NCBI GenBank assembly: GCA_021228405.1
Contig: JAJQRF010000002.1
Coordinates: forward strand, 1-64,000
From: Pyrinomonadaceae bacterium
GTDB taxonomy: Bacteria; Acidobacteriota; Blastocatellia; Pyrinomonadales; Pyrinomonadaceae
Length of the DNA: 64,000 bases
Direction of reading: 5' to 3'
Position numbers and translations under genes: made by a program. This document shows positions 55,534 to 60,119 of this stretch, piece by piece. Position 1 is the stretch's first letter; every line of letters starts with the position of its first letter. The notes beneath the pieces are model-generated. The model searched no databases and was not told where the DNA came from. It worked only from the letters and a program-made list of their open reading frames with translations.

Positions 55534-55670
55534 AACGCGGATTTGGCAGATACGGCAGATTGGCGCGGATCAATTACTAAAAAAAAGAGATTTTTTTGCG
55601 TGCTCTTCCGCTTATTTATCGGACAAAAATCAATCCGCCTAAATCTGCATAATCCGCCTGATCCGCGTTC
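55533..55670. repeat. Family B inverted repeat in a convergent gap
   Basis: GAACGCGGATTTGGCAGAT pairs imperfectly with the mirrored ATCCGCCTGATCCGCGTTC. The element fills the whole gap between the SRPBCC and dapF-like genes, overlapping the dapF stop codon by one base. Confidence 0.75.
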
Positions 55671-56482
55671 TAAAATTCAAAAAAATATTCGCCCGTAAAG
55701 ACGAGATCGGCGCGACCTGTAATCATCATTTCGCCGTCTTCGCGCCAGACGGCTTCGGTCGTTCCGCCTTCGGCGTGAACGGAAACATTTCTGCCTGTTT
55801 TCCCGACAAAGTTGGACGCGACCGCTGCCGCGATCGAACACGTTCCCGATGATGAGGTTTCGCCCGCGCCGCGTTCCCAGATGCGGATTTCGATATTATT
55901 TTTGTCAACGGGCTTCACGAAAACGACATTCGTCCGATCCGGAAAATACGAATGCGATTCGGTTTCTTTTCCGATTTCGCGCCAATCGAGCATTTCAAAA
56001 TCTTTGACAAAAAACACACAAACCGGATTCCCGACATCAAGCGTCACAACCAAAAATTCTTCGTTTTTAACTTTTAATTTTTCATTTTTAATTTCTTTAG
56101 GCGTTCCAAGCTCGGCAAGAAACCAGAAAGTATCGTCTTCGCGTTTCAAAAATTGGTAATTCTTTACGCCGCTCCTGGTTTTTAATTTGAGATTCAAATC
56201 CGTGAAAAGATTTTCGTAATAAAGAAAAGCAACCGCACAACGCGTTCCGTTTCCCGAAAATCCGGCTTCGCTTCCGTCCGGATTGACGATGCGACATTCG
56301 TAATCGGCTTCGCCGTCGAGCTTTTGTAAAACCGCGATGCCGTCACCGCCGACACCTGAATTACGGTGACAAATTCGTTTTGAAAATTCGCCGAGATCGT
56401 TTATCCAACCGATCTCTTCGTGCAAAATAACTATGTAATCATTTCCGAAACCGTGAAATTTGCTGAATTTTATTGGCTTCAT
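55670..56482 (-). CDS. dapF: Diaminopimelate epimerase-like protein
   Basis: The 270-aa protein has the DapF layout: two similar halves, MKPIKFSKFHGFGNDYIVI at the start, and the first catalytic Cys in SGNGTRCAVAF. The second catalytic site, normally GAGETxACGxG, reads GAGETSSSGTCSIA, so Ser appears at the usual Cys position. Enzyme function with that change needs testing. DapF converts LL- to meso-diaminopimelate for lysine and cell wall. Residues around EIKNEKLKVKNEE are encoded by heptamer repeats in frame. A copper-binding lipoprotein gene precedes it with a TAATG overlap. Confidence 0.85.
   Translation of the reverse strand: MKPIKFSKFHGFGNDYIVILHEEIGWINDLGEFSKRICHRNSGVGGDGIAVLQKLDGEADYECRIVNPDGSEAGFSGNGTRCAVAFLYYENLFTDLNLKLKTRSGVKNYQFLKREDDTFWFLAELGTPKEIKNEKLKVKNEEFLVVTLDVGNPVCVFFVKDFEMLDWREIGKETESHSYFPDRTNVVFVKPVDKNNIEIRIWERGAGETSSSGTCSIAAAVASNFVGKTGRNVSVHAEGGTTEAVWREDGEMMITGRADLVFTGEYFFEF
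56061..56095. repeat. In-frame heptamer array inside dapF-like gene
   Basis: TCGTTTT, TAACTTT, TAATTTT, TCATTTT and TAATTTC follow each other inside the gene. They encode a Lys/Asn/Glu-rich loop between the two halves. Confidence 0.7.
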
Positions 56483-56877
56483 TAGTTTGTTTTTTTGATG
56501 CTGATGATCTTTTCCTGCCCGAAATTTTCTTCTAAAACGAAATCAACCTTGTCGCCGACCTTTAAGACCTTCAATTCCGCTTTTTCCTTGACGAAAAACT
56601 CCATCTTCATCGGCGGCATCACGTCTTTTATTTCTTCGTGGTCGAGTTCGACCGAACCTTGGTCGAGATTTATCTTCGTGACAATGCCTTTGCCGTTCGC
56701 AATTTTGATCTTTGTCGCATCGGGCGTTGAAACGGGAAAAGAGGAATTTGAATTAGTCGGCGCAATCGAAGCCGCCGGCAAAGGTTTTACGTTTTGATTT
56801 TTCGTTTCCGAAACAGTTTGCCGACAAGCCGAAACCGTCAAGCTCAAACACAGCAAAATCAAATATTTTCTCTTCAT
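56482..56877 (-). CDS. CusF-like copper-binding lipoprotein
   Basis: The 131-aa protein has a lipobox LTVSAC (C18), a linker of about 40 residues, and a small beta-barrel domain. GIVTKINLDQGSVELDHEEIKDVMPPMKMEFFVKEKAELKVLKVGDKVDFVLEE matches the CusF/CopK-like family, including the Met pair of MPPMKM and the preceding His. Such proteins chaperone Cu(I) or Ag(I) in the periplasm. No copper pump is adjacent. Its stop overlaps the dapF-like start (TAATG), so it is probably co-transcribed with that gene by chance of position. Confidence 0.86.
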   Translation of the reverse strand: MKRKYLILLCLSLTVSACRQTVSETKNQNVKPLPAASIAPTNSNSSFPVSTPDATKIKIANGKGIVTKINLDQGSVELDHEEIKDVMPPMKMEFFVKEKAELKVLKVGDKVDFVLEENFGQEKIISIKKTN

Positions 56878-56897: not shown

Positions 56898-58988
56898 TTA
56901 CTGCCTTCGCGCCGCCGGAGCGGGAACGATTTTCATCGTCATTTTTTCCGTGCCGCGCATAATCACGATCTCGTATTCTTCACCCGCTTTCAGATCGCCG
57001 AGAACGACCATATAATCCTGCACATTGCGGACTTCCTTTCCCGCAAGTTTGACGATCTTATCGCCGCCTTTTAACCCGGCTTTGTCGGCTGGCGAGCCTG
57101 TGCGAACGCCGTCGATCAGCATTCCGTCGGTCGAATCACCGTAGCCCGGAACGGTTCCGAGCGAAACGTTGATGTTCATTCTGCCGCCCATCATTCCCGC
57201 AGATTGCGCAACTTTATAGGTCGGTTTTGTCGGATTTACGTCAACCGTCTTGACGAGTTCGGAAACAAAATTCGCAATCTTCAAAACGCCCGCGTAATTT
57301 ATTTTTTCCGGTGTGTCCGAAGGTTTGTGATAATCTTCGTGCGTTCCCGTGAAGAAGAAAAGAACGGGAATTTGCTTCCCGTAAAACGATGCGTGGTCGG
57401 AAGGTCCGAAACCATCTTCGCTGAGTTGGAGATTAAATGAAAACGGTTCAATATAATCTTTATTTACCTCGACAACTTCATTTTTAACAGGTTTATTTCC
57501 GGATTCTTGAGCAATTTTAACGACATAAGCCAACTTTCCGCTAGGAACTGTTCCTGAAAGAATTACAGTGCCGTTCTGAATGTCAGCACTTACATTGTTG
57601 TAAGATTCATTCTTTAATTTTGCTTCGATTGATTGTTTTAGCTTTAGATTTTCTTCGCCGACAGTTTCAATTTTTTCTTTATTTTTTGCTACCTTTCCTT
57701 CAACCAGACCTTTCCATTCACTCGCCGAACCGATTCCGCCGACGGTTAATTTCTCGTCTTTCAAACGCCCGATCATATCCATATTGAACATTGCAACGGT
57801 TTTATCGAGCGGGAAAACGGGATTGTTGACGTAGAACTTTGAGCCTAACAAGCCTTCTTCTTCGCCGCCGAAACCGATAAAAATTATCGTGCGTTTATTT
57901 TTCTTTTCTTTCGCAAACTGACGCGCAAGCTCGATCAATGCGGAAGTTCCCGAAGCATTATCGTCCGCGCCGTGATGAATCGCGGTCGAATTTACCGCCA
58001 GACTTCCCTGTCCGCCTTTGCCGAGATGATCGTAATGCGCGCCGATGACGATCGCCTCTTTTTTCAACTGCGCGTCGTTTCCTTCCAGAATTCCGATGAC
58101 GTTATAGGCTTCGGTTTGTTTTTTGACGAGATTTACTTTGAATCCGACGATCGCTTTCGTATTTATTTCAACGATTACGCGAAAAGCCGCGTCACCGTTG
58201 GCGGAAAGGATTTTTTCGATCTCGCCGACTTTCGCTTCGGTCGTGCCGAAAATGTCGGCGGCGGTCTTGCGCGACACAAGAATCGTCGGAAGCGCGGCTT
58301 CGCCCGTCGTCTGATCGTATTTCAGCGCGGCGAGATTGTCGTTTTCGAGATCGCTTTCGCGCGTTATCAAAAGCAACCCGGTCGCGCCTTTGTCTTTGGC
58401 TATCTTCGCTTTTGAATGTGCGTTGAAACGCATAAAAGGCGAACGCGGATTTCCGCTGTTGGGCGTTCCGTCAAAGGCGATGACGACTTTGTTGCGAACG
58501 TCGAGATTTTTGTAATCGTCGTAGTTTTGTTCCGTTGCAGCGACCCCGTAACCGACAAAAACGATTGCGCTGTCGGTAATTTCTCCGTTCGGCGAAAACC
58601 CGACCGGCTTAAATCCGGCTTTCCCGTCAAAAGTCATCCTTTGCCCGTCGTTTTTGGCGACATCAAGCGTAAAAGCATTTCCCGAATCAGCCATCGAAAC
58701 GCCCGAAATATAAGGAAAAGGCTGTAGAAAATTGCCGACCTGTTTTCCCTTCGCGTTCGTCTGCAAATTTCCCGGTTTCAGCTTGTATTGCGCAAACATA
58801 TTCGCGACATAACCTGCCGCCGAAGTCGCACCCGTTTCGCCCGTTCGCCGACCTTCGAGCTGATCGGAAGCGAGATAGACGAGATGTTTCCGAATATTCG
58901 CTTCGGCTTCGGTCGGTTTTGCCGTCTGCGCCGAAACGGTGAAAACGAACGATAATAAAAGAAGAAAACTGAAAATTTGCTTTTTCAT
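56898..58988 (-). CDS. Secreted M28 peptidase with PDZ and an inserted BON-like domain
   Basis: The ATG at 58988 gives 696 aa; a TTG three codons upstream is less likely. After a signal peptide (SAQ) come a PA-like region, the M28 domain with zinc ligands in VIGAHYDHLG, GADDNASGTSALIELAR and GGEEEGLLG, and a C-terminal PDZ domain (about 605-690, GMLIDGVRTGSPADKAGLKGGDKIV). Between the WKGLVEG and FNLQLSEDGFGPSDHASFY blocks of the peptidase sits a BON-like domain (about residues 432-512: KQSIEAKL... VSADIQNGTVILSGTVPSG). Its DNA is about 35% GC against about 52% on both sides, so it looks like a recent insertion. Confidence 0.88.
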   Translation of the reverse strand: MKKQIFSFLLLLSFVFTVSAQTAKPTEAEANIRKHLVYLASDQLEGRRTGETGATSAAGYVANMFAQYKLKPGNLQTNAKGKQVGNFLQPFPYISGVSMADSGNAFTLDVAKNDGQRMTFDGKAGFKPVGFSPNGEITDSAIVFVGYGVAATEQNYDDYKNLDVRNKVVIAFDGTPNSGNPRSPFMRFNAHSKAKIAKDKGATGLLLITRESDLENDNLAALKYDQTTGEAALPTILVSRKTAADIFGTTEAKVGEIEKILSANGDAAFRVIVEINTKAIVGFKVNLVKKQTEAYNVIGILEGNDAQLKKEAIVIGAHYDHLGKGGQGSLAVNSTAIHHGADDNASGTSALIELARQFAKEKKNKRTIIFIGFGGEEEGLLGSKFYVNNPVFPLDKTVAMFNMDMIGRLKDEKLTVGGIGSASEWKGLVEGKVAKNKEKIETVGEENLKLKQSIEAKLKNESYNNVSADIQNGTVILSGTVPSGKLAYVVKIAQESGNKPVKNEVVEVNKDYIEPFSFNLQLSEDGFGPSDHASFYGKQIPVLFFFTGTHEDYHKPSDTPEKINYAGVLKIANFVSELVKTVDVNPTKPTYKVAQSAGMMGGRMNINVSLGTVPGYGDSTDGMLIDGVRTGSPADKAGLKGGDKIVKLAGKEVRNVQDYMVVLGDLKAGEEYEIVIMRGTEKMTMKIVPAPAARRQ

Positions 58989-58995
58989 AAAATTC

Positions 58996-59071
58996 AACCG
59001 CGAATTTATACGAAGGAACCACGAAGAAATTTCGGAAAAACTTCGTGCGATCTTCGTGTTCCTTCGTGGTT
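58996..59071. repeat. Family C-like inverted repeat
   Basis: GAAGGAACCACGAAG pairs with the mirrored CTTCGTG...TTCCTTC in part, and AACCGCGAA with TTCGTGGTT. It lies between two minus-strand genes. Confidence 0.6.
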
Positions 59072-59081
59072 ATAATTTTTT

Positions 59082-60119
59082 CTACCAAACCCAATCGGCG
59101 ATGAAAACGTTTGTGTCGCCCGTTTTGGCGGCGTTGCGGTTCGACGCGAAAACGAGTTTTTTGCCGTCGGGCGAAAACATCGGGAAACCGTCGAACGATT
59201 CGTTAAATGTGATACGTTCCAAACCCGTGCCGTCAACGTTTATGAGCGCGAGATCGAAATTTCGTTTGCGCGGGTCGTTGGCGAAATAGTTCGTGCAGAA
59301 AATTATTTTCTTGCCGTCAGGCGTAAAAAACGGGGCGAACGAAGCCGCGCCGAGTTTTGTGACCTGGCGTTTATTCGTGCCGTCGGCGTTCATCACCCAA
59401 ACTTCAAAATTGTTCGGTTCGATCAAGTCTTCCGAAAGACGCAGTTTGTAGCGCGCGATTTCGGCTTCGGTTTTCGGATGATACGAACGGTAAACGATCT
59501 GTTTGCCGTCAGGCGAGAAAAACGCGCCGCCGTCGTAGCCGAGTTCGGTCGTCAGCCGTTTGACGTTTTTCCCGTTAATATCCATCGAATACAGATCGAG
59601 ATCGCCGTCGCGCGTCGAAGTAAAAATTATCTTTTTGCCGTCGGGCGAAACGGTCGCTTCGGCATCGTAGCCTTTCGTCGTCGTGAGCGGTTTGATGTTT
59701 TTGCCGTCGGCGTTTGAAACGTAAATGTCGTAATCGGGATAGATCGCCCAAACGTAGCCTTTCGAGTAATCAGGATTCGGCGGACATTCCTTTTTGCCCA
59801 TAAAGGTCGAAGCGTAAAGAACTTTTTTGCCGCCTTTCAGGAAATACGAGCAGGTCGTGCGACCTTCGCCGTTTGAAACCATTTTCAAGCCCGAACCGTC
59901 GGCGTTCATCGTAAAAATCTGGTCGCATTGCAGGTTGTCGCGTTTCGATTGGAACGAGAGCTTTTTGCCGTCGGACGAAAAATAGGCTTCGGCATTTTCG
60001 CCGCCGAACGTTAATTGTTTGATATTTTTCAAATGCTTTTCGCCTTCGACGGCGAGATTTTGCGCGTTTGAAACAGTAAACAGACTGATAGTTAAAAGAA
60101 AAATAGCCAAAAATTTCAT
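59082..60119 (-). CDS. Secreted TolB-like (PD40) beta-propeller protein
   Basis: The 345-aa protein has a signal peptide (residues 1-19, SNAQ) and at least six PD40 repeats (SSDGKKLSFQSKRDNLQC, SPDGKKIIFTSTRDGDLDLYSMDINGKNVKRLTTELG, SPDGKQIVYRSY, TPDGKKIIFCTNY, SPDGKKLVFASNRN). This is the TolB propeller module. It lacks TolB's N-terminal domain and is not in a tol operon, so it is probably a stand-alone surface or periplasmic scaffold. It lies upstream of the M28-PDZ peptidase on the same strand. Confidence 0.88.
   Translation of the reverse strand: MKFLAIFLLTISLFTVSNAQNLAVEGEKHLKNIKQLTFGGENAEAYFSSDGKKLSFQSKRDNLQCDQIFTMNADGSGLKMVSNGEGRTTCSYFLKGGKKVLYASTFMGKKECPPNPDYSKGYVWAIYPDYDIYVSNADGKNIKPLTTTKGYDAEATVSPDGKKIIFTSTRDGDLDLYSMDINGKNVKRLTTELGYDGGAFFSPDGKQIVYRSYHPKTEAEIARYKLRLSEDLIEPNNFEVWVMNADGTNKRQVTKLGAASFAPFFTPDGKKIIFCTNYFANDPRKRNFDLALINVDGTGLERITFNESFDGFPMFSPDGKKLVFASNRNAAKTGDTNVFIADWVW

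Follow-up and report, generated by a model that had tools for sequence, protein, structure and literature searches.

An AT-rich BON-like insert in the catalytic core of an M28-PDZ peptidase: site, spread and base composition

In a soil-type member of the Acidobacteriota, a gene for a peptidase of the M28 type is interrupted within its catalytic core by a segment whose base composition differs sharply from that of the rest of the gene. Where did this segment come from, and what does it do for the enzyme? We addressed these questions in the 64,000-nucleotide stretch of DNA that contains the gene (hereafter, the window). The original prediction was that an AT-rich BON domain had been acquired recently from another source and could tether the enzyme to the membrane.

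Position and identity of the insert

The gene and the parts of it considered here are listed below.

56898–58997, minus strand: M28-PDZ peptidase gene carrying the insert, an ORF of 699 aa with Pfam PA, M28 and PDZ domains
57699–57785, minus strand: left M28 flank, from the zinc-ligand motif NMDMIGR up to LVE (N.DM.GR invariant in a 26-sequence alignment)
57438–57698, minus strand: whole inserted loop, residues 434–520, between conserved LVE and FNLQL (alignments of 60+ orthologues)
57468–57665, minus strand: BON-like module within the loop, residues 445–510 (profile of standalone BON proteins, E = 1.2e-22; Pfam BON)
57393–57437, minus strand: right M28 flank of sequence FNLQLSEDGFGPSDH, which includes the final His zinc ligand (its S and D do not vary in the 26-sequence alignment)

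The length of 699 aa counts from a TTG; translation more likely begins at an ATG three codons downstream (58988). The protein begins with a hydrophobic, signal-like N-terminus and has the order signal-PA-M28-PDZ, with Pfam detecting PA, Peptidase_M28 as two stretches, PDZ and BON. Its closest solved folds are the M28 aminopeptidases 2ek8, 6hc6 and 8acr. The same domain order and the same five zinc-ligand motifs characterize family M28 proteins with PA and C-terminal PDZ domains (PF04389, PF02225, PF13180), and relatives of this type are known in Acidobacteriota, Ignavibacteria, Planctomycetota and other groups. All five motifs (HYDH, DDNASG, GEEEG, NxDMxG and SDH) are intact in the window protein and in three other carriers of the insert, and GPSDH of the right flank is preserved in every carrier. 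The intact zinc motifs suggest that the enzyme is probably active, and its predicted activity is that of an aminopeptidase. The zinc-ligand role of NMDMIGR is assumed here from established knowledge of M28 enzymes. Two further forms of the gene were observed in the family: in G012 (L056:1-3400) it occurs as a tandem duplicate with an identical loop between the zinc motifs in both copies, and in G023 (L045) the orthologue is only 465 aa long, most of the PA region being gone and the zinc motifs and PDZ domain being retained.

The insert splits the M28 core between the NMDMIGR (NxDMxG) and GPSDH (SDH) motifs. Other M28-PA-PDZ proteins have either no insert at this point or, within the family, loops that are not BON, whereas the window protein has a BON module there. 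The gap between the two motifs is 126 residues in the window protein; among M28 relatives that belong to other families of the class it is mostly 46 and in some cases up to 67, and insert-free relatives in the class have a loop of about 7 residues at the site. When 25 M28 proteins, mostly from other phyla, were aligned with the window protein, all but one were free of any insert, the sole exception (L062) being a protein of the same family with a short loop. Among orthologues the loop ranges from 0 to 104 residues, and the site is hypervariable. The predicted splitting of the M28 core by a BON-like module was borne out at the sequence level, by the standalone-BON profile and by Pfam scores close to the cut-off. 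The limits first proposed for it, 57453–57695, were a few residues too narrow for the insert proper, at about 57438–57698, which encloses a BON-like core at 57468–57665.

A Pfam scan placed BON at residues 453–507 (E = 1.1e-4, 22.9 bits), and a six-frame search with PF04972 gave 26.8 bits for the insert stretch and 27.5 bits with its in-frame neighbours included; single scans of the window insert (22.9–26.8 bits) therefore lie at the edge of the cut-off of 27. Scores for the inserts of the other carriers were 30.2 bits (G062), 23.9 bits (G019) and 15.6 bits (G005), and a standalone BON lipoprotein encoded in the same genome itself falls under the Pfam cut-off (22.2 bits). A separate profile was built solely from standalone BON proteins of this genome and its relatives, with the inserts left out, and 20 shuffles of each loop were used as the null (best shuffled loop, E = 0.018). 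It matched exactly four M28 loops, with E values from 1e-13 to 1e-22, the window loop among them; no other M28 orthologue loop beat the shuffled loops.

Compared with solved structures, a profile of the insert found its best genuine BON matches in DolP (7a2d, E = 0.005) and OsmY (8rjx, E = 0.06). These nearest solved BON proteins, DolP/YraP and OsmY of E. coli, have two BON domains and no enzyme, whereas the insert is a BON-like module within a peptidase. Profile matches in the PDB to designed pentatricopeptide proteins were rejected as sums of many weak repeats in which no single stretch passes. AF2 modelling of the protein, with an alignment of relatives that have no insert, produced a helix and a hairpin in the BON part and a remainder below pLDDT 50. 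Folded alone, the insert reached pLDDT 58.6, and a fold search with this model returned no match. Support for the BON identity of the insert comes from sequence, not from structure.

Many of the non-BON loops across genera (e.g., L013, L017, L128 and L042) contain a recurrent P-V/I-V-V-G/S-A-N-G-x-x-V stretch. The idea that the PIVVGANGRPVVT stretch of non-carrier loops is a remnant of the BON hairpin was rejected, as no non-carrier loop outscores shuffled loops with the standalone-BON profile. In the open-access literature, none of the papers listed by searches for BON together with M28, or for domain inserts in M28, describes the BON-M28 combination.

Distribution and age of the insert

A sample of 119 genomes of the host family, which we take to be Pyrinomonadaceae, was searched with a profile of the flanks plus the insert. 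The profile matched in 69 of the 119 genomes, and the full insert was found in four: the genome of the window (G000), G005, G019 and G062. These carriers represent four genera and have the insert at the same site, and sister species in genera g6 and g18 are without it. A phylum-wide search of 396 genomes recovered the insert in G000 and G019 alone. Two neighbouring genes were used to follow the locus.

55670–56482, minus strand: dapF, with BLAST matches beside the M28 gene in G005, G019, G062, G070, G071, G032 and G013
59082–60119, minus strand: TolB-like beta-propeller protein, labelled from its sequence and not by a family search, with a 79–83% identical neighbour in G005, G019, G070, G071 and G032

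The M28 gene lies beside dapF in all four carriers, and non-carriers keep this neighbour too; the TolB-like neighbour is present in full in G005, G019 and several non-carriers. Presence or absence of the insert is therefore a difference between alleles of one orthologous gene. A gene for a small secreted protein, CusF-like to judge by its sequence, separates dapF from the M28 gene in the window (56482–56877, minus strand); in G071 and G032, too, the M28 gene has a match to it alongside.

Pairwise identity among the four carriers is 23–38% for the inserts and 56–66% for the M28 cores. The inserts form one clade (support 92/89, just short of the program's star level), within a group (95/94) that includes the small BON lipoproteins of the family. 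By profile match and joint clade, these lipoproteins have the same C-terminal BON module as the insert, but they are standalone, secreted and outside any enzyme. The copy in the same genome (C4:456910-457260, 117 aa) is 43% identical to the window insert, and its GC3 of 36% is less extreme. Its gene adjoins a small-protein gene (contig C4; L002:1105-1476 and 1495-1848), the product of which has a BON-like N-terminus and a LysM C-terminus and, to judge by its sequence, resembles E. coli Kbp. Several relatives (L174, L179, L181, L185, L169 and L171) encode, near the BON lipoprotein gene, a secreted protein of about 300–360 aa that ends in the same BON module, which suggests that the C-terminal BON is a portable module in this bacterial family.

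According to the core tree, all carriers belong to one 24-row clade (support 100), yet they are scattered within it, G005 being sister to the non-carrier G071 (support 99). The BON label must change four times on this tree, with well supported branches forcing at least two of the changes; more than one gain or transfer may therefore have occurred. When the core of the four carriers alone was considered, the insert topology was not rejected (AU p = 0.35). An old single gain with many losses fits these results, and exchange within the family also fits, but recent import into the window genome does not.

The explanation that we favour, and consider reasonably probable, combines an old gain of BON in the ancestor of a subclade, then inheritance with losses or passage between relatives, with a role in docking or gating and not as a lipid anchor. 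The ancestor of one subclade of the family would have gained, probably once, a BON domain related to the family's own small BON lipoproteins. Its point of entry would have been a loop of variable length that separates the fourth zinc-ligand motif from the fifth in a secreted M28-PDZ aminopeptidase. Thereafter the insert would have descended with the orthologous locus, with many losses, or relatives would have passed it on to one another.

Another account, in which the insert moves among relatives by recombination through the conserved flanks and derives from unsampled AT-rich family members, appears unlikely to us, though it deserves some weight. It agrees with the presence and absence of the insert within genera g6 and g18, with the changes required on the core tree and with low GC3 that spills into the conserved right flank in three carriers. 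However, the insert topology is compatible with the core, no insert is present in the two M28 genes of non-carriers that are AT-rich (G064 and G070, GC3 about 38%), and a GC3 of 22% is below that of any M28 gene sampled in the family.

More doubtful still is the recent acquisition first proposed, i.e., a late transfer of the BON segment from an AT-rich donor, into each carrier separately or once into the window genome. In its favour are the marked bias towards AT at synonymous positions (z = −4.8), the patchiness of the spread and a divergence far greater in the insert than in the core. Nevertheless, the prediction was not supported: the insert recurs at this site and at an orthologous locus in three further genera, the four copies make up a single clade with 23–38% identity to one another, and they group with the family's BON lipoproteins. 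Orthologues do carry the insert, only patchily, and it is equally AT-rich in two of the three others; several non-BON loops at the site lean towards AT as well. The search for a donor was likewise unproductive, as the best protein copy in the same genome was 43% identical, no close copy was found in the sampled phylum, and a DNA search of the same genome for a donor or second copy gave only 34-base chance matches.

Base composition of the insert

The sharp AT-richness first reported, about 35% GC, was confirmed, with 34.6% GC at 57480–57719; the 52% given for both sides is slightly high close to the insert, where the immediate flanks have 43–48% GC, more distant parts of the gene having 50–54%. 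At codon positions 1, 2 and 3, the insert has a GC of 48/27/23%, compared with 54/39/56% elsewhere in the gene. GC3 of the insert versus the rest of the gene is 23.5% versus 55% in G000, 28% versus 52% in G005, 22% versus 52% in G019 and 45% versus 51% in G062. Among the 13,912 coding windows of 81 codons in the 64-kb stretch, the insert is the only cluster with GC3 ≤ 0.30.

The number of GC-ending codons expected was derived from the amino acids that the insert encodes and from codon usage in the gene outside it. With 19 such codons seen in the window insert and 39 expected (z = −4.8), amino-acid make-up was rejected as the cause of the low GC3; the corresponding z values are −3.6 in G005, −4.6 in G019 and −1.25 in G062. 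Weak conservation was rejected for G000, G005 and G019, in which variable core codons have a GC3 of 0.53–0.57, as high as conserved ones. Recency, amino-acid make-up and low conservation fail to account for the GC3 of 22–28% in three of the four inserts. A donor is probably not the source of the AT bias; its signature would have had to outlast protein divergence to about 30% identity.

The lean towards AT extends beyond the BON inserts. Among non-BON loops at the same site in the 24-row clade, 14 of 18 are below the GC3 of the rest of their gene (Wilcoxon p = 0.008), e.g., 0.25 versus 0.59 in G071 and 0.23 versus 0.52 in G013; it is not clear in the rest of the family (p = 0.08), and both p-values are optimistic, the related genes not being independent. 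In the three AT-rich carriers, GC3 across the first ten codons of the conserved right flank (30 codons in total) is 0.23 under the gene mean.

GC content has been linked to recombination in bacterial genes (Lassalle et al., PMC4450053), and core genes are reported to be higher in GC than accessory genes (Bohlin et al., PMC5303225). We favour the reading that the AT bias arises because whatever raises GC elsewhere is locally missing, for example through scarce homologous recombination and hence little GC-biased gene conversion in a segment that strains do not share; recombination would presumably be reduced in such a segment. More tentatively, it is possible that an inserted domain can long keep its own base composition, a strain-variable segment and some ten flanking codons escaping the GC-raising force, as would be expected were bacterial GC-biased gene conversion dependent on homologous sequence that strains share. 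Against a local absence of this force, insert GC3 in G000 and G019 is lower even than the 36% GC of the window's non-coding DNA (p = 0.01 and 0.003), which mutation bias alone would not produce.

These two low values leave room for selected codon use, in which rare AT-ending codons are kept to slow translation or to keep the mRNA open while the inserted domain folds. The bias is kept in three genera despite protein divergence and is independent of amino-acid make-up and of conservation, as this account would have it; however, G062 is without the bias and short domain-free loops at the same site lean likewise (G071, G013), and we consider the account improbable.

Possible role of the module and wider meaning

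In sequence, the insert lies between the fourth and fifth zinc ligands, a region that we take, from established M28 structure, to be near the substrate cleft. The BON module would then lie on the same side of the catalytic domain as the active site, where it would serve for docking or gating. This is the most likely role for it, proposed with modest confidence: it may bind another envelope component or limit the substrates that reach the zinc site.

Anchoring of the peptidase through anionic phospholipid, the tether first envisaged, went unsupported and is very unlikely. DolP, which with OsmY gives the best genuine BON matches to the insert profile among solved structures, does bind anionic phospholipid, by means of Trp127, a residue of the extended first helix of its BON2. 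DolP BON1, which lacks W127, did not bind, and the authors of that study conclude that BON domains are not generalist lipid binders (PMC7806268). All four inserts are without any Trp that could be the counterpart of W127, and the first insert helix is rich in Glu and Lys. Lipid tethering is rated less likely than docking or gating.

The case described here is an ordinary domain insertion plus one interesting compositional puzzle. In the BON-M28 protein, nature provides an instance of domain insertion into a catalytic core that leaves the metal motifs in place. It also carries a warning, namely that a patch of sharply raised AT within a gene is not necessarily a sign of recent horizontal transfer; here three genera share the patch, and their inserts have drifted apart to about 30% identity. 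If escape from the GC-raising force is the true reading, such AT-rich patches would mark segments variable in presence and absence, not recent transfers, and if they arise because segments that strains do not share go without gene conversion, they would allow the bacterial gene-conversion hypothesis to be tested within single genes.
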